The notes under the pieces are model-generated. The model searched no databases, was not told where the DNA came from, and saw nothing but the letters and a program-made list of their open reading frames with translations. Positions 49,495-56,846 of a stretch of 64,000 nucleotides of DNA are shown here, piece after piece. The translations under genes were made by a program, and so were the position numbers. The stretch covers positions 682,001 to 746,000 of the forward strand of contig NZ_SJPI01000003.1 in NCBI RefSeq assembly GCF_007859865.1, written 5' to 3'. The DNA is from Rubripirellula amarantea. GTDB taxonomy: Bacteria > Planctomycetota > Planctomycetia > Pirellulales > Pirellulaceae. Each line of letters begins with the position of its first letter. Within the stretch, counting starts at the first letter, position 1.

Positions 49495-50850
49495 TCACGA
49501 ACGTTCTTCACTAGCAAGCACCGGGCTGACAATACTGCCTGCGCCGGGGCGGACGGACAAGATCCGCATCCCAATTGATTTCAGGTGATGCGTCGGTACG
49601 ACAACACCGACCAATAACCCCAAGCACAACAGACGTCCTAACGACGAGATCGCAAACAGAGAATAGTACGTTTCAAACTGGCATCCCCAGTAAGCCAAGA
49701 TCGCAGCCCCCGCTAACGCGCCGATACAAATCGCCAACGTGTTGGCAAAATTGTAGTAGGTCAACAAACGAGTCCTTTGGCTTGCCGGAAGCGTTTCAAA
49801 GAACATCAAGAAAAACCCAAGCTCGTACGCCGACCACGCAATTCCGCTGATGATTTGAATGAACCCCAACCACCAAACGTTGGTCGAGACAATCCAAAGC
49901 GATGCCAACGGGACCAACCCGAGGCCACCTATCCAAAGCACTTTCACGGCTCCGGTTCGTTCAGCAACTCGTCCCCAAAAGGACATGGTCAGCACCTTGC
50001 TAACGAAAGCCAATGACACCAACAAAACATAGGTGCCGTAGCCGAATTCCAATTGCTTAAGCATGTACGGGACGAAAAAGGGACCGCTTAATTGAATAAA
50101 CGCCTGCATGAAGACTAGATAAATCAGCAAACGAATGGCCGTGTGGCTGATCGTATCGGTCGGCGATGTGGCTTCGCGGCTAGGGGATGAACTTAGTAAT
50201 ACCGCGTTGCTGTCCGACGATGTGGTTCGGTGTAAAAAGCCAGCCGACACAATCCTGAGCCCACCGGCAATGCAAAACATGGCAGCAAAAGCTTCCAGAC
50301 CTAGTTCTTTGTTCGATGACCATTGCAAAAGCATGCCAGCGGAGAGCAACCCGGCAAACGTGCAGACTTGTTGCAGGCGTGACCGCTTAGAGAAAAAGCG
50401 AACGCGACGCTCCTTGGCGACGACGGTTTCCATCCAAGTGTTCCACGCTGGGCCTGTGGCCAAGCCGGCGGCCCAATACACCGAGGCGATGAGCAGAAGC
50501 AACGGCAAGGAAAGTGAACCCCGCCAAGCCGCGTACGCGAGTGGAATAAATGTGATTGCCTGGATGGCTGCCCCTAAGACAATCCAACGTTGCAAACCGC
50601 CGATCCAGCGGATCGCAATGGGTGAAATCAACTGAATCGCCCCGCCAGCAAGCAGCGGCAAACTTGCTACCAATCCGGCTTCGGTCTCCCCCAGGCCAAC
50701 CGCCAACGCGAAGGCTGGAAAATACGTTTCTCCGCAGCCAACCATCCCGCCAAAACACGCGGCATCCCCCATGCTACGTCGGAGGTTTTGCTGCTCGCCG
50801 TCGATGTGAGTAAACGAAACTTGACTGTTGGTAGTGGGGACGCAGTGCAT
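49495..50850 (-). CDS. Major facilitator superfamily transporter
   Basis: This 451-residue protein has about 12 membrane segments, in two halves separated by a polar loop (HRTTSSDSNAVLLSSSPSREA). It is a member of the MFS. The start ATG is at 50850 (MHCVPTTNSQ); a TTG two codons upstream is less likely. It lies 44 bases after the N-formylglutamate amidohydrolase gene on the same strand and is therefore probably the last gene of the ligase/peptidase operon above it. An exporter for the operon product would fit this position, but a separate promoter cannot be ruled out. The substrate is unknown. Confidence 0.87.
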   Translation of the reverse strand: MHCVPTTNSQVSFTHIDGEQQNLRRSMGDAACFGGMVGCGETYFPAFALAVGLGETEAGLVASLPLLAGGAIQLISPIAIRWIGGLQRWIVLGAAIQAITFIPLAYAAWRGSLSLPLLLLIASVYWAAGLATGPAWNTWMETVVAKERRVRFFSKRSRLQQVCTFAGLLSAGMLLQWSSNKELGLEAFAAMFCIAGGLRIVSAGFLHRTTSSDSNAVLLSSSPSREATSPTDTISHTAIRLLIYLVFMQAFIQLSGPFFVPYMLKQLEFGYGTYVLLVSLAFVSKVLTMSFWGRVAERTGAVKVLWIGGLGLVPLASLWIVSTNVWWLGFIQIISGIAWSAYELGFFLMFFETLPASQRTRLLTYYNFANTLAICIGALAGAAILAYWGCQFETYYSLFAISSLGRLLCLGLLVGVVVPTHHLKSIGMRILSVRPGAGSIVSPVLASEERS

Positions 50851-50883
50851 GGACAACTAGAGCGAATATAGCGAAGGGAGGTT

Positions 50884-50900
50884 CGATAGTACTACTATCG
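50884..50900. promoter_or_regulatory. Perfect 17-bp palindrome
   Basis: cgatagta and tactatcg form a perfect 8-bp inverted repeat around one central base, overlapping the stop codon of the amidohydrolase gene and 34 bases before the MFS start. The centre is too short for a stable hairpin loop, so an operator is more plausible than a terminator. Confidence 0.4.
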
Positions 50901-51641
50901 TCCATCCGACGGAATCTGGTCCAGCAAAGAAGCCACGATAGAGTGCTGCTGGATCGGATCACGCTTAAAAAAGCGGTTTGAGATTTCAATCTCTATTCCA
51001 AAATATTCGCTTTCGCAAAACTGTCGACGCAATGCTGTTGTGAAACCGTCGTCGGTTCCCGCGTACGGTTGATTGTTGACCACACGTAGTCTTGGACGGA
51101 CCTTCAGCATCCCCAATCGCCAACTTTCGCAAAAATTAGTTTCGCCGGGTCGTGATGGATCAAACAACAACCCCACGTCGATCGGTCGCCAATTGCCTTT
51201 CATTCGTGGGGTAAACGTGTGCACGGACAAGTGGACCAAAAGACTTCCAACTGAAATTGCCGCCGCAATCGTATCACGCACGCGATTGCGGTAGGGATAG
51301 TAGTACTGCTGAAGTACTTGTTGCTGCTGAGATGCTGGCAAACGTCGCGAGAACTTTGAAAGCAGCTCGGGATTCTCAATCGAACGGTTGAGATCTACGA
51401 GTAAGCGAGTCACTTGGCAAGAATCAAGATCGCAACCCAGGCGATCGGCAATCTGGCGGGCGGCCGCTACCGCACCTGGATCGTAGCCACGATGACTTGA
51501 GAGTAGTTTTTGAGCTTGCGGTGACGCAAACACCGACGAATACGCCATCGGCACATCGTTGCCTGCATGCTCGCAAGTCACGACAAATACGCGATCTTGG
51601 CGGCTCGCGAGCTTACGGCTCACGGCTGGAACGGTTCCCAT
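50895..51641 (-). CDS. N-formylglutamate amidohydrolase family protein
   Basis: This 248-residue protein matches the N-formylglutamate amidohydrolase (HutG-like) family: VVTCEHAGNDVP near residue 20, RGYDPGA, LLVDLNRS, VHTFTP and YFGIEIEISNRF. Family members hydrolyse N-formyl-glutamate in histidine breakdown, but no hut genes are nearby. Here the gene overlaps the GCS2 ligase by 22 bases, within an operon containing a RimK-like ligase and two peptidases, so it more likely acts on an N-acyl or formyl group of the operon product. Cytoplasmic; no signal peptide. Confidence 0.9.
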   Translation of the reverse strand: MGTVPAVSRKLASRQDRVFVVTCEHAGNDVPMAYSSVFASPQAQKLLSSHRGYDPGAVAAARQIADRLGCDLDSCQVTRLLVDLNRSIENPELLSKFSRRLPASQQQQVLQQYYYPYRNRVRDTIAAAISVGSLLVHLSVHTFTPRMKGNWRPIDVGLLFDPSRPGETNFCESWRLGMLKVRPRLRVVNNQPYAGTDDGFTTALRRQFCESEYFGIEIEISNRFFKRDPIQQHSIVASLLDQIPSDGR

Positions 51642-52861
51642 TGGTCAAGGCAGTCTGCGAGTTGGTCATAGACGTTGTGGAGATCTTCCTGCGAAAAATC
51701 ATCGCCGAGGGATTTGCAAATTCTCGTCGCGAGAGTCCCTTCGTTTTCGATAACCTCCAACGGGGCGTACAACGTGGCGAGCGAAGAATCGTCGCGTCGA
51801 ACACGATGAAGCAATTCGGACCACAGTTCGCGACCCCGACAACTCGCTCGGTTCACGCCAAGCGTAGCTAAGTAGGCGCTGTCCGAGATGACGGCATTTT
51901 CAGCATCCGTGGAAACGTCATCTAGGACCGCACGTAAAGACGCCGTCCCGATTGCTTGCTGAGCTTCTAGGCTGGACACGTTCTCTTCGACCAGCCACTT
52001 CACCACCGCCGTTACCGCCGCACAAATGGCGACGTCAGCACCGGGGTATTCCTGCACATCCATCACTCGCAATTCCACGCTGCCGCGATCAAACCGAGCG
52101 ATCGCGCCCCGAGCATTCAAAAAGTCAATCTGCAATACACCGCTGGGATCATGCACTTTGACGTCACGCTGTATGGGCTCGAACACTTCGCGGCGATAGG
52201 TCGCTTCATCGAAGATTGATTCTGGAATCACTTGACCGGTCAATGAGCCCATCGCGCGACAGTGGTCGGCATAGTACTGCATCCGAGTGTCCATCTTCCC
52301 GGTGTATTGGCCGTCGACAATGGGCGAACTTGCGGTCAACGCGGGCAGGATCGGCAACACCAACCGCACCGCGGCATGCAACCTAGAAAACTCTTCGTCG
52401 CCATCGAAAGGAAGGTTCAAGTGAACACTTTGGACATTCGCCCAACCGTGCGACTTACAGTCGAAAATTCGATCGTAGGCTTGGTAGATCTCGTAGTTCT
52501 CGTGAGGCCACAAAATTGTCTCGATCGCAGGGTTCATCCAAGGATGCATTGCCGTAGGCAGCAACCGGACGTTAAGCCGATCAAGAACCGGGCGCAGATC
52601 AACCATCGCTTTTTCAAACTGCGACGGCAACGATCGAATCTTCTTCGCTGGTAGTGTGGTCTTAAGTTCTAAGACGTGTAGGGCTAGCTCGTTGGACCAT
52701 GTGATAGGACCGGATTCAAAATCACTGACGAGCTGTCCTCCGGCAAGTATTGCCAACACCGTGTCAGCAACAGGGCGCACGTTAAGCGTATCTCGATCAA
52801 CGAGCATGTATTCCATTTCGATGCCGAAAGCTTCGAACAGTTTTAGATCTTGAGTAGTCAT
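51620..52861 (-). CDS. GCS2-family glutamate-cysteine ligase-like enzyme
   Basis: This 413-residue protein belongs to the GCS2 carboxylate-amine ligase family (YbdK-like). AFGIEMEYMLVD matches the G-x-E-x-E block that binds metal-ATP, ALHVLELKTT and VHLNLPFDGDEEF supply further active-site acids, and ELRVMDVQEYPGADVAIC lies near the C-terminal part of the fold. The enzyme should join a glutamate-type gamma-carboxylate to an amine using ATP. Context (RimK-like ligase 65 bases upstream, amidohydrolase overlapping downstream) indicates a dedicated peptide-like product and not glutathione synthesis, as no gshB is present. Confidence 0.9.
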   Translation of the reverse strand: MTTQDLKLFEAFGIEMEYMLVDRDTLNVRPVADTVLAILAGGQLVSDFESGPITWSNELALHVLELKTTLPAKKIRSLPSQFEKAMVDLRPVLDRLNVRLLPTAMHPWMNPAIETILWPHENYEIYQAYDRIFDCKSHGWANVQSVHLNLPFDGDEEFSRLHAAVRLVLPILPALTASSPIVDGQYTGKMDTRMQYYADHCRAMGSLTGQVIPESIFDEATYRREVFEPIQRDVKVHDPSGVLQIDFLNARGAIARFDRGSVELRVMDVQEYPGADVAICAAVTAVVKWLVEENVSSLEAQQAIGTASLRAVLDDVSTDAENAVISDSAYLATLGVNRASCRGRELWSELLHRVRRDDSSLATLYAPLEVIENEGTLATRICKSLGDDFSQEDLHNVYDQLADCLDQWEPFQP

Positions 52862-52926
52862 GGGGCGGTTGATTCAGTTGAAGGTTGCGTACATCGTTTT
52901 GAAGAAGCAATATCTTGCCAACAATG

Positions 52927-54396
52927 TCATGAGTTCGATTGTTTATTGGCTTCGATTCGACGCACGAAGGACTCCATGATTCGGCGATACAAGTCGTCTC
53001 GAAGGATGGCGTCCTCGACTCCTGAATCCAAATTAGGGTTATCGTTGACTTCAATGACGTAGAATTGACCGTCGGCTTCCTTAATGTCGACACCGTATAG
53101 ACCGTTGCCGATCAGGTTGGCCGCTTTCACCGCTGTCGCGACGGCTTTTCGCGGCGCCAATTCCACCGGCAGCGTGTCGGCTTTTCCAAATTGAGGTTTG
53201 CTGCCGCCCGCATTGTGCTTGGCGATCTGCCAATGCCCCTTTGCCATGTGGTACTTGCAAGCAAATATTGCTCGCCCGTCCAGGACACCAATCCGCCAAT
53301 CAAAGTCGGTCCGCATGTACTGTTGAGCAATCACCAACTCGGACGTTTCGAAAAACTCGGAAAGCCGGGAACTTAACTCCTGTTCATCAGCCGCTTTGAC
53401 GACGCCTTGGGAAAACGCACTGTCGGGCCGCTTCAGTACAACGGGAAACATAAATTCCTGGGCAATCTCAGCAGCGTTTCGTCGGTGAACGATCCAAGTT
53501 TGAGGTGTGGGAATCTTTGCTCGATTGAGCAATTCTGCGAGGTAAACCTTGTTCGTGCAACGAAGGATCGACAAAGGGTCGTCGATCACCACCATGCCTG
53601 CGGCTTCGGCACGTCGAGCCAAGCGATAGGTGTGATGGTTCACTGCCGTCGTTTCGCGAATGAACAACGCATCAAATTCAAGAATCCGTCCTGAGTCCTG
53701 GCGAGTGATCAGTTCAGCGGATACTCCCTCGGCCGCTGCAGCTTTCACCAATTTCTTCAACGCCGATTCGTCCGAGGGCGCTAGATCACCTTCTTCGGGA
53801 TTGTGCAAAATCGCTAGGTCATAGCGAGCCGACTTTCGCTTGGGACGACTGAAGGCACGACGCGAAAAGTGCTCGGCCGCGGCGTCGGCGACGAAGTCAC
53901 GGTGGCCTTCGGGAATTGAATTCAGTGCTAGTGCGGAAGCCCTCCTCAATCGCCATTTGCTGCGACGCGAGAAATGAAAACACAACAGCGGAGCCTGAAA
54001 GAGTCCGTAGAGTTCCTTAGCCAACTTGTCGTACTTCTTGGCGAAGTTGGCTCCGAAGTAAACGCTTAAGACGAACTCGTCGCTGCTGACTCCCTTCAGG
54101 GACGATTGGATCAAGTCCTCTAGAGACTGTGGAACCAATCGCACAGCAGCCGATCCATGCAAGTCTTGAATGGTCGAAACATCGGGAAAAGGCCGATGCC
54201 CGCGTGCCTCGGCTAGCAATGAAACGTAGTATCCAATGCTTTGGTAGCCATAGGAACGGCTTAAGTTGTAAATTCGGGTTCCACGTCGAAGCGAAGCGTC
54301 GTTGCTCGCGAGATAGTCACGCGGGTCAACTGTTTCGACGTCGTAGAATGGACCAAGCCAATCATCGCCATTTTCGGCGACTAAGATTGCGTTCAT
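52927..54396 (-). CDS. RimK-like ATP-grasp ligase with N-terminal RLAN-type domain
   Basis: This 489-residue protein has an N-terminal domain of the RimK-like ATP-grasp N-terminal type (about 1-190, including YNLSRSYGYQSIGYYVSLLAEARG) and a C-terminal ATP-grasp domain (about 250-485) with FPVVLKRPDSAFSQGVVKA, DWRIGVLDGRAIFACKYH and the metal-binding YVIEVNDNPNLDSG. It lacks the compact form of ribosomal protein S6 modifying RimK, so it more likely ligates amino acids to a small substrate. It overlaps the C39 peptidase gene by 4 bases and precedes the GCS2 gene, forming a two-ligase operon. Confidence 0.92.
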   Translation of the reverse strand: MNAILVAENGDDWLGPFYDVETVDPRDYLASNDASLRRGTRIYNLSRSYGYQSIGYYVSLLAEARGHRPFPDVSTIQDLHGSAAVRLVPQSLEDLIQSSLKGVSSDEFVLSVYFGANFAKKYDKLAKELYGLFQAPLLCFHFSRRSKWRLRRASALALNSIPEGHRDFVADAAAEHFSRRAFSRPKRKSARYDLAILHNPEEGDLAPSDESALKKLVKAAAAEGVSAELITRQDSGRILEFDALFIRETTAVNHHTYRLARRAEAAGMVVIDDPLSILRCTNKVYLAELLNRAKIPTPQTWIVHRRNAAEIAQEFMFPVVLKRPDSAFSQGVVKAADEQELSSRLSEFFETSELVIAQQYMRTDFDWRIGVLDGRAIFACKYHMAKGHWQIAKHNAGGSKPQFGKADTLPVELAPRKAVATAVKAANLIGNGLYGVDIKEADGQFYVIEVNDNPNLDSGVEDAILRDDLYRRIMESFVRRIEANKQSNS

Positions 54397-55181
54397 GTAG
54401 GAATAGGTTCTCTGGGACGAATGGTCATCAGGTTGGCATCGTACGTGACGATACCGAGCAAAATCGCGGATGTCACACGCGATAACATGGCTGGGTACTT
54501 GTTCGTCGGTGCCATTGGGTTGGGGTGTAGCGGATCGGCAATCAGGACAACTTGCTTCGCGGGATCGTAACCATGCAACACGACGAAGTGTCCCATCGGA
54601 TCGCCAATGACGTCATCATCAATACTGCGATGGATACCATCGACGATGGCTGCCCGTTGACGGGATTCTTGATAAAGATAGGTAGCACTAAGGCCACAAA
54701 GGATGGGGACGCGAGCTGCAAGCAGATCAACTATCAGCGACTCTTCAAGCGGCTGCATCTGCACGCGTCCACCAAGCGAAAGGAACAGCAAGTAGGCATC
54801 CGTGGCCGCCTGCAGCCGAGCTTGATCAATGCCTATTTGGTTTCGCTTGGCCTCAAGTTGCAACTGCAACCGCTCAGCCAGAAAGTCGGCTGAAAACATT
54901 TCACCATTCTCATCGAACCACGTGGGATCAAAGATTTGAAGGTTATAGGTAACGATGACGACGTCAAAATCGCGTTTGAGCGCGTCACAGCCAAGGTTCA
55001 CTGCTAGGGTTCCGCCTGTGCCAAGTTCGCCGACGTCGCGAATCAGTTGATCCAACGAAACCGTGGCGTTCCAGTACTCGTAGACGGCCGCTAGGCAGGT
55101 CGGCCCGCAGCTTGTTTCAGAGGGTTGAGGCTGGATTTCCAGCTCCAATAAATGCTCGCGGGCATCGAAAGGCGTTGTCAT
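54393..55181 (-). CDS. C39-like papain-fold peptidase
   Basis: This 262-residue protein resembles the C39 peptidase family of bacteriocin-processing cysteine proteases. Cys25 in ETSCGPTCLAAVYEYW is the likely nucleophile, and MGHFVVLHGYD with VLIADPLHPNPM supplies the His and Asp. It has no signal peptide or ABC domain, so it probably acts in the cytoplasm. It overlaps both neighbours by 4 bases (RimK-like ligase downstream, M42 peptidase upstream), indicating translational coupling. A likely role is cleaving or transferring a peptide bond of the ligase product; no target is encoded nearby as an obvious precursor peptide. Confidence 0.88.
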   Translation of the reverse strand: MTTPFDAREHLLELEIQPQPSETSCGPTCLAAVYEYWNATVSLDQLIRDVGELGTGGTLAVNLGCDALKRDFDVVIVTYNLQIFDPTWFDENGEMFSADFLAERLQLQLEAKRNQIGIDQARLQAATDAYLLFLSLGGRVQMQPLEESLIVDLLAARVPILCGLSATYLYQESRQRAAIVDGIHRSIDDDVIGDPMGHFVVLHGYDPAKQVVLIADPLHPNPMAPTNKYPAMLSRVTSAILLGIVTYDANLMTIRPREPIPT

Positions 55182-56254
55182 CGATGGCTACGTTCCGCAC
55201 TGCCAAGCCCCGCCATCGCCGACAACACTCGCAACATGGCGTCAACGCTTGAGATCGATGCTGTCTCGGTTTGAGTGTGATACGAAGATGTTGGTAGCTG
55301 AAGCGTAGTGCCGGTAATGGTTAGGTTTGAGGCGGAAATGAGCCGGCCTAGTTCGGTACGTCCCAACGAACTTGGCTTGTCGCGTGTTTTGTTTAACTCG
55401 TTGATATAGTCATCTTTGTATCGATAGGATATCCCCATTCGATCACAGGTATCAGCGAGCTTTTGAGTTAGACCTGGGTCGAACTTGGCGGTGGAATCAC
55501 AATGACGCAGCACCACGTCTTGATCGGCCAAGTCTTCAATGTTCGGAAATGGACTCGTATCCAAAACAATCAACCGGTCCGTCGACACGTCACGCCGCTG
55601 GAACCATTCCGCCGCATATCGCCAACTCCGTCCCGACTCTTCCCCCGCCGTGAACAAAGCCGTCCCTTGAAACCCGCGACGAATCAGTTCAATGACGACC
55701 GCAACACTCACAACGTTGTCGAGTTGTGCCGAGATATGGCCATCTTCCTCTTTCAAACGATCCAAGAAGGAAACAGGGGTTCCAGGTTGCAGGAAGTCGA
55801 GGCCTTCGATTTCGAATATCAGGTTCTTACGACGAGGGCAAATGAACGATTCCGTTATCACGCCCTGGCCCAGATACGAACCTGCGTATGGCGTATGAGC
55901 CTGGACGCGCTGGCCATAAAATCGCCCCGCGATCGTTTCCATGAACTGTTCGGAAATCGAATCGCCGTTGAGTTCGCCTCGGTTACCCGCAATGAATGCC
56001 GCGTACTGGAATTCCCGCGGACCGGTGCACATCAACCCGTGACGGTCCACGTGAGCCGAGACGTAGGCGCTTTCGGGTTTATTCCCTTGAACGACGAGTA
56101 ACCCGTGATATCGAGTCACCGTGACGGGAAACTCTTCCAACTCGCGTCGCAGGACGCGAAAAAAAGCGTCCTCCATACCAACGACAGAGGGCTCACGAAC
56201 GAGAGCTCGCAAGAGATGCAAAAACGACTGGAGCGAGCGGTGAGTGTTTTCCAT
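55178..56254 (-). CDS. M42-type metallopeptidase
   Basis: This 358-residue protein carries the metal-binding residues of the M42/M20/M28 co-catalytic zinc peptidases: AHVDRHGLM (His, Asp), SAQLDNVVSVAV (Asp), AGEESGRSW (Glu-Glu), LDTSPF (Asp) and SYHTQTET (His). M42 enzymes are aminopeptidases that trim peptides from the N-terminus, usually as large cytoplasmic assemblies. It is the first gene of the six-gene minus-strand operon, overlapping the C39-like gene by 4 bases. The 1 kb upstream is non-coding and repeat-rich, so the operon promoter probably lies between 56255 and 56600. Confidence 0.88.
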   Translation of the reverse strand: MENTHRSLQSFLHLLRALVREPSVVGMEDAFFRVLRRELEEFPVTVTRYHGLLVVQGNKPESAYVSAHVDRHGLMCTGPREFQYAAFIAGNRGELNGDSISEQFMETIAGRFYGQRVQAHTPYAGSYLGQGVITESFICPRRKNLIFEIEGLDFLQPGTPVSFLDRLKEEDGHISAQLDNVVSVAVVIELIRRGFQGTALFTAGEESGRSWRYAAEWFQRRDVSTDRLIVLDTSPFPNIEDLADQDVVLRHCDSTAKFDPGLTQKLADTCDRMGISYRYKDDYINELNKTRDKPSSLGRTELGRLISASNLTITGTTLQLPTSSYHTQTETASISSVDAMLRVLSAMAGLGSAERSHR

Positions 56255-56614: not shown

Positions 56615-56653
56615 GTCTTTGCACTGAGTCTTTGCACTGAGTCTTTGCACTGA
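56615..56653 (+). repeat. 13-bp tandem repeat, three exact copies
   Basis: gtctttgcactga occurs at 56615-56627, 56628-56640 and 56641-56653 without change, followed by two degraded copies up to about 56679. Confidence 0.92.
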
Positions 56654-56696
56654 GACTTTGAACGGGGACTTTGCACCGCGCCCCCTTGCCCCCACT

Positions 56697-56846
56697 GATC
56701 TACAGCGCCTTGATCTACAGCGCCTTGATCTACAGCGCCTTGATCTACAGCGCCTTGATCTACAGCGCCTTGATCTCCAGCGTCTTGATCTCCAGCGCCT
56801 TGATCTCCAGCGTCTTGATCTCCAGCGTCTTGATCTCCAACGACCT
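56697..56846 (+). repeat. 15-bp minisatellite, ten copies
   Basis: gatctacagcgcctt is repeated five times without change (56697-56771), then five times as gatctccagcgtctt or close variants (56772-56846). There are no spacers, so it is not a CRISPR array. The two halves show a block substitution, suggesting growth from two founder units by slippage. Confidence 0.95.

Follow-up and report, generated by a model that had tools for sequence, protein, structure and literature searches.

Contig NZ_SJPI01000003.1 of the planctomycete Rubripirellula amarantea (assembly GCF_007859865.1) carries a compact run of six minus-strand genes, two of which encode amide ligases of different families. The run lies in the 64,000-nucleotide stretch that was analysed (the window; positions 682,001 to 746,000 of the contig) and takes up window positions 49495-56254, the exact span of six open reading frames (ORFs) in the window's ORF list. 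An earlier note on this DNA, made from its letters alone, had described a six-gene operon here, and the positions and families it gave agreed with the ORF list and with Pfam, whose curated cut-offs were exceeded by all six proteins (MFS_1, FGase, GCS2, RLAN and RimK, Peptidase_C39_2 and Peptidase_M42). In the direction of transcription the genes are:

55178..56254, minus strand: M42-family aminopeptidase, a lineage-specific accessory gene (Pfam Peptidase_M42, 2.9e-10)
54393..55181, minus strand: C39-like papain-fold cysteine enzyme, the first gene of the conserved core (Pfam Peptidase_C39_2)
52927..54396, minus strand: RLAN/RimK-like ATP-grasp amide ligase, a core gene (Pfam RLAN, 4.3e-44; RimK, 6.4e-15)
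51620..52861, minus strand: GCS2-type carboxylate-amine ligase, a core gene (Pfam GCS2, 1.2e-21)
50895..51641, minus strand: N-formylglutamate-amidohydrolase-like enzyme (FGA), a frequent fourth core gene (Pfam FGase, 2.3e-17)
49495..50856, minus strand: MFS transporter, a lineage-specific accessory gene (Pfam MFS_1, 2.7e-15)

The ORF coordinates reproduced most of the spacings that had been read between successive genes, namely two overlaps of 4 bases, a gap of 65 and an overlap of 22; the 44-base gap read between the FGA and MFS genes holds from an ATG six bases further in, but is 38 bases from the TTG start at 50856. All six genes look intact and under constraint, with fewer amino-acid than silent changes: with silent sites at or near saturation, pN/pS was 0.21-0.52 over the six genes when the window was compared with a locus of the same genus (L098), and 0.16-0.44 and 0.21-0.47 over the five genes shared with L118 and L109, respectively. 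Promoter- and terminator-like sites occurred at counts near the means of shuffled sequence, so such sites do not mark the boundaries of the operon. A role in defence was considered and rejected, the six proteins having no match in a PADLOC search at E 0.01.

Comparison of 159 loci, the window included (40 from one genome_contigs scan and 120 family or phylum stretches, two being duplicates), revealed that the conserved unit is not the six genes but four, in the fixed order C39 - RLAN/RimK - GCS2 - FGA, with FGA the less constant member. Gene calls were taken from a table of hidden Markov model (HMM) envelopes, and neighbours were counted within 3.5 kb of the ligase. Among 53 loci of the window's family, where 68 genomes had a ligase match and 53 of these are represented, C39 was found in 51, GCS2 in 53 and FGA in 38, with median gaps of 10 bases between C39 and ligase, 14 between ligase and GCS2 and -14.5 between GCS2 and FGA. 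Where the sequenced stretch left room on both sides, C39 and GCS2 were both present in 50 of 51 family loci, and all three partners in 37 of the 50 that also had room for FGA. The order of the four central genes and their close spacing recur at most of the loci examined, but the M42 and MFS genes are rare, each occurring at 8/53 family loci, and the idea of a single six-gene system had to be given up: these two are local additions. Outside the family they are scarcer still, M42 lying close to the ligase at 0/68 loci elsewhere in the phylum and 1/38 genome_contigs loci, and MFS at 1/68 and 0/38.

The core itself extends well beyond the family. Both C39 and GCS2 accompany the ligase in 28 of the 31 genome_contigs loci with room, and in 43 of the 63 such loci elsewhere in the window's phylum (68 loci in all, standing for 68 of 82 genomes with a match), most of the remainder having a different architecture described below. 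The titles of cassette-bearing loci name Planctomycetota, Fibrobacterota, Gemmatimonadota, Bacteroidota and Pseudomonadota, mostly for metagenome bins, of which single placements may be wrong. In a Legionella adelaidensis record the ligase, GCS2 and FGA are annotated in cassette order; this 9 kb record (L197) is labelled a plasmid and has fur, bamE, dapF and other usually chromosomal genes near the three, and it may be a chromosomal piece.

Within the family, co-inheritance was followed in 198 genomes, all searched alike. The RLAN ligase was present in 68, this type of C39 in 67 and this type of GCS2 in 69; all three occurred together in 65 and none in 128, most of these genomes being among the sources of the query alignments. 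All five exceptions (G016, G018, G162, G177 and G186) come from assemblies in about 290 to 1210 pieces. The distribution is patchy even at short range, the ligase being present in 5/19 listed genomes of the window's genus. Two cassette-bearing genomes also have a second, unlinked C39 copy (G056:C281, E 9.3e-81; G163:C22, E 1.2e-79).

Five planctomycete loci in three families (L183, L184, L185, L187 and L188) give direct evidence of joint action by the two ligases: the RLAN/RimK ligase and GCS2 domains are fused there in a single frame of 974-1022 residues. In the L183 protein all three domains (RLAN, RimK, GCS2) were recognised by Pfam, and the other four fusions were called by our own HMMs. 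Together with the near-identical phyletic sets, these fusions bear out the earlier supposition that the two ligases belong together; the phyletic sets join C39 to them.

The GCS2 protein of the window is a clear member of PF04107 (77.8 bits, cut-off 21), and G13, E15 and E17 of its GxExE motif are invariant in 53/53 aligned GCS2 rows. The excerpted text of PMC2588565 gives GhExE as the metal/ATP motif of this family. The protein scored 57.8 bits with TIGR02050 (YbdK), far from the cut-off of 176.4, and fell below those of the remaining listed NCBIfam GshA/YbdK models as well. A search of the window genome for glutathione synthetase gave two ATP-grasp matches.

In the ligase, the RLAN domain (PF14401, residues 26-172) stands N-terminal to the RimK domain (residues 282-458). 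The earlier annotation as RimK-like was therefore right as far as it went, but left the RLAN domain unnamed. The RimK name should not be taken to mean glutamate ligation, because the protein scored 88.8 bits with TIGR00768 (RimK alpha-L-glutamate ligase), whose cut-off is 143.4. Residues E449 and N451 and an HWQI motif at 388-391 are invariant in 46/46 aligned ligases, HWQI occupying the place of the FRS-N residues of RimK. An AlphaFold 2 (AF2) model of the ligase (pLDDT 89) matched the structures of RimK and ArgX/LysX, and all 50 matches listed for the whole model were ATP-grasp enzymes. Relatives of this ligase turn up in other settings: one is encoded on a Pseudomonas aeruginosa plasmid (L195:6902-8491) without the usual partners, no C39, GCS2, FGA or GNAT being annotated in 15 kb, and at three loci (L189, L190 and L191) RLAN and ATP-grasp occupy separate adjoining frames with a GNAT beside them.

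The C39 enzyme belongs by its residues and its fold to the papain-fold class, with catalytic Gln19, Cys25, His198 and Asp216 invariant in the aligned rows. Its model is equally close to phytochelatin synthase and to leader peptidases, and the likeness to phytochelatin synthase (C83) is one of fold. Phytochelatin synthase itself forms an acyl-enzyme, with a gamma-glutamyl peptide as substrate. The profile of the fourth enzyme, FGA, matched 2odf (Atu2144) at 2.9e-41.

The earlier note had remarked that no precursor peptide gene was evident. This held on a far wider front: among 1837 same-strand ORFs of 20-110 amino acids within 1.5 kb of 125 cassettes no small precursor ORF was conserved, in a scan that is blind to a fast-changing or unlinked precursor and to a remote protein target. 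The scan gave 12 clusters, of which the four largest (8, 7, 6 and 6 loci) and two of the three 3-locus clusters lie wholly inside the gene for a GNAT-nitrilase, and the rest span 2-3 loci each. Assignment to the graspetides or other ribosomally synthesised and post-translationally modified peptides (RiPPs) was accordingly rejected, no conserved precursor gene lying near the 125 cassettes.

A second architecture was seen at 22 of the 159 loci, which have neither cassette-type C39 nor GCS2 near the ligase. At 17 of these 22 a co-directional GNAT acetyltransferase stands next to the ligase or forms an N-terminal fusion with it. A GNAT model built from four ligase-fused examples (L148, L163, L176 and L180) found no match within 3.5 kb at any of the 137 loci having C39 or GCS2, though this model does not recognise the GNAT part of the GNAT-nitrilase that some of the 137 carry. 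At L041, which is cut at one end, the GNAT is on the opposite strand; L139, L140, L170 and L178 have neither C39/GCS2 nor GNAT near the ligase, nest among cassette loci in the ligase tree and are probable losses or rearrangements. The two architectures cluster in that tree, with six changes needed (FastTree; 45 of 129 inner branches weak). L125 has, beside its RLAN ligase, a protein that unites a GNAT with a DUF3335 C39-like domain, and DUF3335-GNAT fusions are tied to Iyer et al. 2009 in the excerpted text of PMC10318531.

At 19 loci the GNAT-nitrilase gene (about 530 residues) is no more than 7 kb away from the ligase, 15 times on the ligase strand and either upstream or downstream; its domains were determined on one member. 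It stands near 18/120 planctomycete loci, against about 0.24 expected for one randomly placed copy per genome (a neighbourhood of 1.55 Mb, with genomes of about 6.5 Mb). The counterpart in the window genome is on another contig (L198) and is 74% identical to that of L081. The largest neighbour cluster, of 21 loci, has 11 of its 32 genes on the same strand and looks mixed. In the window, two tandem arrays lie upstream of the M42 gene, one of 13 bp x 4.8 at 56615-56676 and one of 15 bp x 9.4 with 96% matches at 56696-56836.

What would such a cassette make? We consider the chances about even (a probability of roughly 0.5) that it is a cytoplasmic system for a short, non-ribosomal glutamyl (iso)peptide. 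A small product of this kind is suggested because the core unites two amide ligases, an N-formylglutamate-type amidase and a papain-fold enzyme of a sort that can form acyl-enzymes, and we favour a free metabolite rather than a protein tag, since the cassette appears to have no recurrent neighbour gene for a carrier, precursor or target. From what is known of the enzyme families, GCS2 would couple an amine to a carboxylate that it activates, probably glutamate's gamma-carboxylate. The RLAN/RimK-like ligase would add a second amine in like manner, at a carboxylate either of that intermediate or of the one after it, so that the two would share the work much as glutamate-cysteine ligase and then glutathione synthetase do. 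The C39 enzyme may form an acyl-enzyme with the product, which it would then hydrolyse or transfer, and FGA could remove a formyl-like acyl group from nitrogen or recycle a glutamyl amide. Some members of the window's family would have, in addition, turnover by the M42 aminopeptidase and transport by the MFS carrier; these can apply to part of the family at most, and with its gene at so few loci the MFS protein is not indicated as the general exporter it had been taken for.

Several points weigh against a glutamyl (iso)peptide. The substrates of the cassette enzymes are putative, and as HWQI differs from its RimK counterpart, RimK is no guide to the acceptor. RLAN ligases occur alone or with GNAT, and therefore the ligase can work without GCS2; FGA is missing in 13 of the 50 family loci with room and so is not essential everywhere. 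Leader peptidases and an endoisopeptidase resemble C39 at like scores, and the blind spots of the small-ORF scan count here as well.

One rival is protein tagging, in which the RLAN/RimK-like ligase, aided by GCS2, would add amino acids to a protein and C39 and FGA would trim the tag. RimK adds amino acids to ribosomal protein S6, the nearest solved structures are those of RimK and ArgX/LysX, and RLAN could be a docking domain. The excerpted text of PMC12239564 describes RimK and ArgX/LysX as acting on proteins; the same excerpts give a retropepsin, not C39, GCS2 or FGA, as the partner of RimK in Pseudomonas. With this different partner, with the invariant HWQI in place of FRS-N, and with no carrier or target gene recurrent beside the cassette in either the neighbour clusters or the small-ORF scan, we think tagging unlikely. 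A thiol system akin to glutathione or phytochelatins would have GCS2 make gamma-glutamyl-cysteine or an analogue, the ATP-grasp enzyme add a residue and C39 act like phytochelatin synthase. A GCS-type and an ATP-grasp ligase are partners here too, but GCS2 lies far under the gshA and YbdK cut-offs, cysteine is not indicated as a substrate and C39 matches leader peptidases as well as it does phytochelatin synthase, which makes such a system somewhat more doubtful still.

A further candidate is an osmoprotectant dipeptide like N-acetylglutaminylglutamine amide (NAGGN), built by the ligases and degraded by M42. The best, very weak, NCBIfam match of the window M42 is the peptidase of that system (TIGR03106, 19.7 bits against 397.75, E 3.1e-4), a GNAT is fused to RLAN/RimK in the alternative architecture, and the GNAT part of the L125 GNAT-C39 protein matches its counterpart in the model of the NAGGN synthetase (36 of 569 bits, E 2.9e-9). 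Yet at E 1e-5 that model finds no match in the GNAT-RLAN-RimK protein of L148, few cassettes have an M42 gene nearby, and no amidotransferase was recognised by eye among neighbour clusters of at least 4 loci, judged without HMM annotation; we regard this product as very unlikely. Slightly less credible again is salvage, in which imported peptides or fragments of the wall would be broken down by the peptidases and FGA and their pieces reused by the ligases: hydrolases are indeed present, but the two ligases and C39 are more constant than the other hydrolases, and wall genes give no signal among the recurrent same-strand neighbours listed.

Returning to the glutamyl (iso)peptide, a bolder and rather speculative extension, which we would not expect to hold, is that RLAN ligases serve two interchangeable chemotypes of one metabolite class, N-acylated with GNAT and gamma-glutamylated with GCS2, with the papain-fold enzyme as transpeptidase, in a glutathione-like system of at least five phyla. 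The exclusion between GNAT and GCS2 yields a testable prediction on how the product is capped, and the natural RimK=GCS2 fusion is a single protein suited to substrate screens. That the cassette has been kept across phyla, under constraint, in about a third of family genomes (68/198) implies that its compound is useful.

Iyer et al. 2009 (doi 10.1039/b917682a) reportedly predicted RLAN/RimK amidoligase neighbourhoods with peptidases, GCS2-like and acetyltransferase-like enzymes, and the cassette resembles those systems in linking ATP-grasp ligases to just such partners. That work is cited in the excerpted texts of PMC10318531 and PMC12239564. A literature search, whose coverage did not extend to Iyer et al. 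2009, recognised no description of the four-gene order; we view the cassette as a variant of a predicted, uncharacterised kind of amidoligase system and do not claim its absence from print. Its ligase has the ATP-grasp fold and E-x-N metal motif of RimK, but differs in its extra RLAN domain, its HWQI, its partner genes and its score below the TIGR00768 cut-off. With the NAGGN system (TIGR03103, TIGR03106) there is the joint occurrence of GNAT and ATP-grasp in the alternative architecture and an M42 in the window operon, whereas scores fall short of the equivalog models and the cassette has GCS2, C39 and FGA. The C39 enzyme shares fold and catalytic residues with the phytochelatin synthase Alr0975 (2bu3), although identity is 15% over the aligned part and leader peptidases are equally close. 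Glutathione synthesis pairs GCS2 with an ATP-grasp enzyme, bifunctional fusions included. The cassette departs from it in its ATP-grasp-then-GCS2 domain order, its RLAN domain, its GCS2 scores below known cut-offs and, in the window's family, the (nearly) constant company of C39, but it has the same partnership of a GCS-type and an ATP-grasp ligase, sometimes in a single protein.

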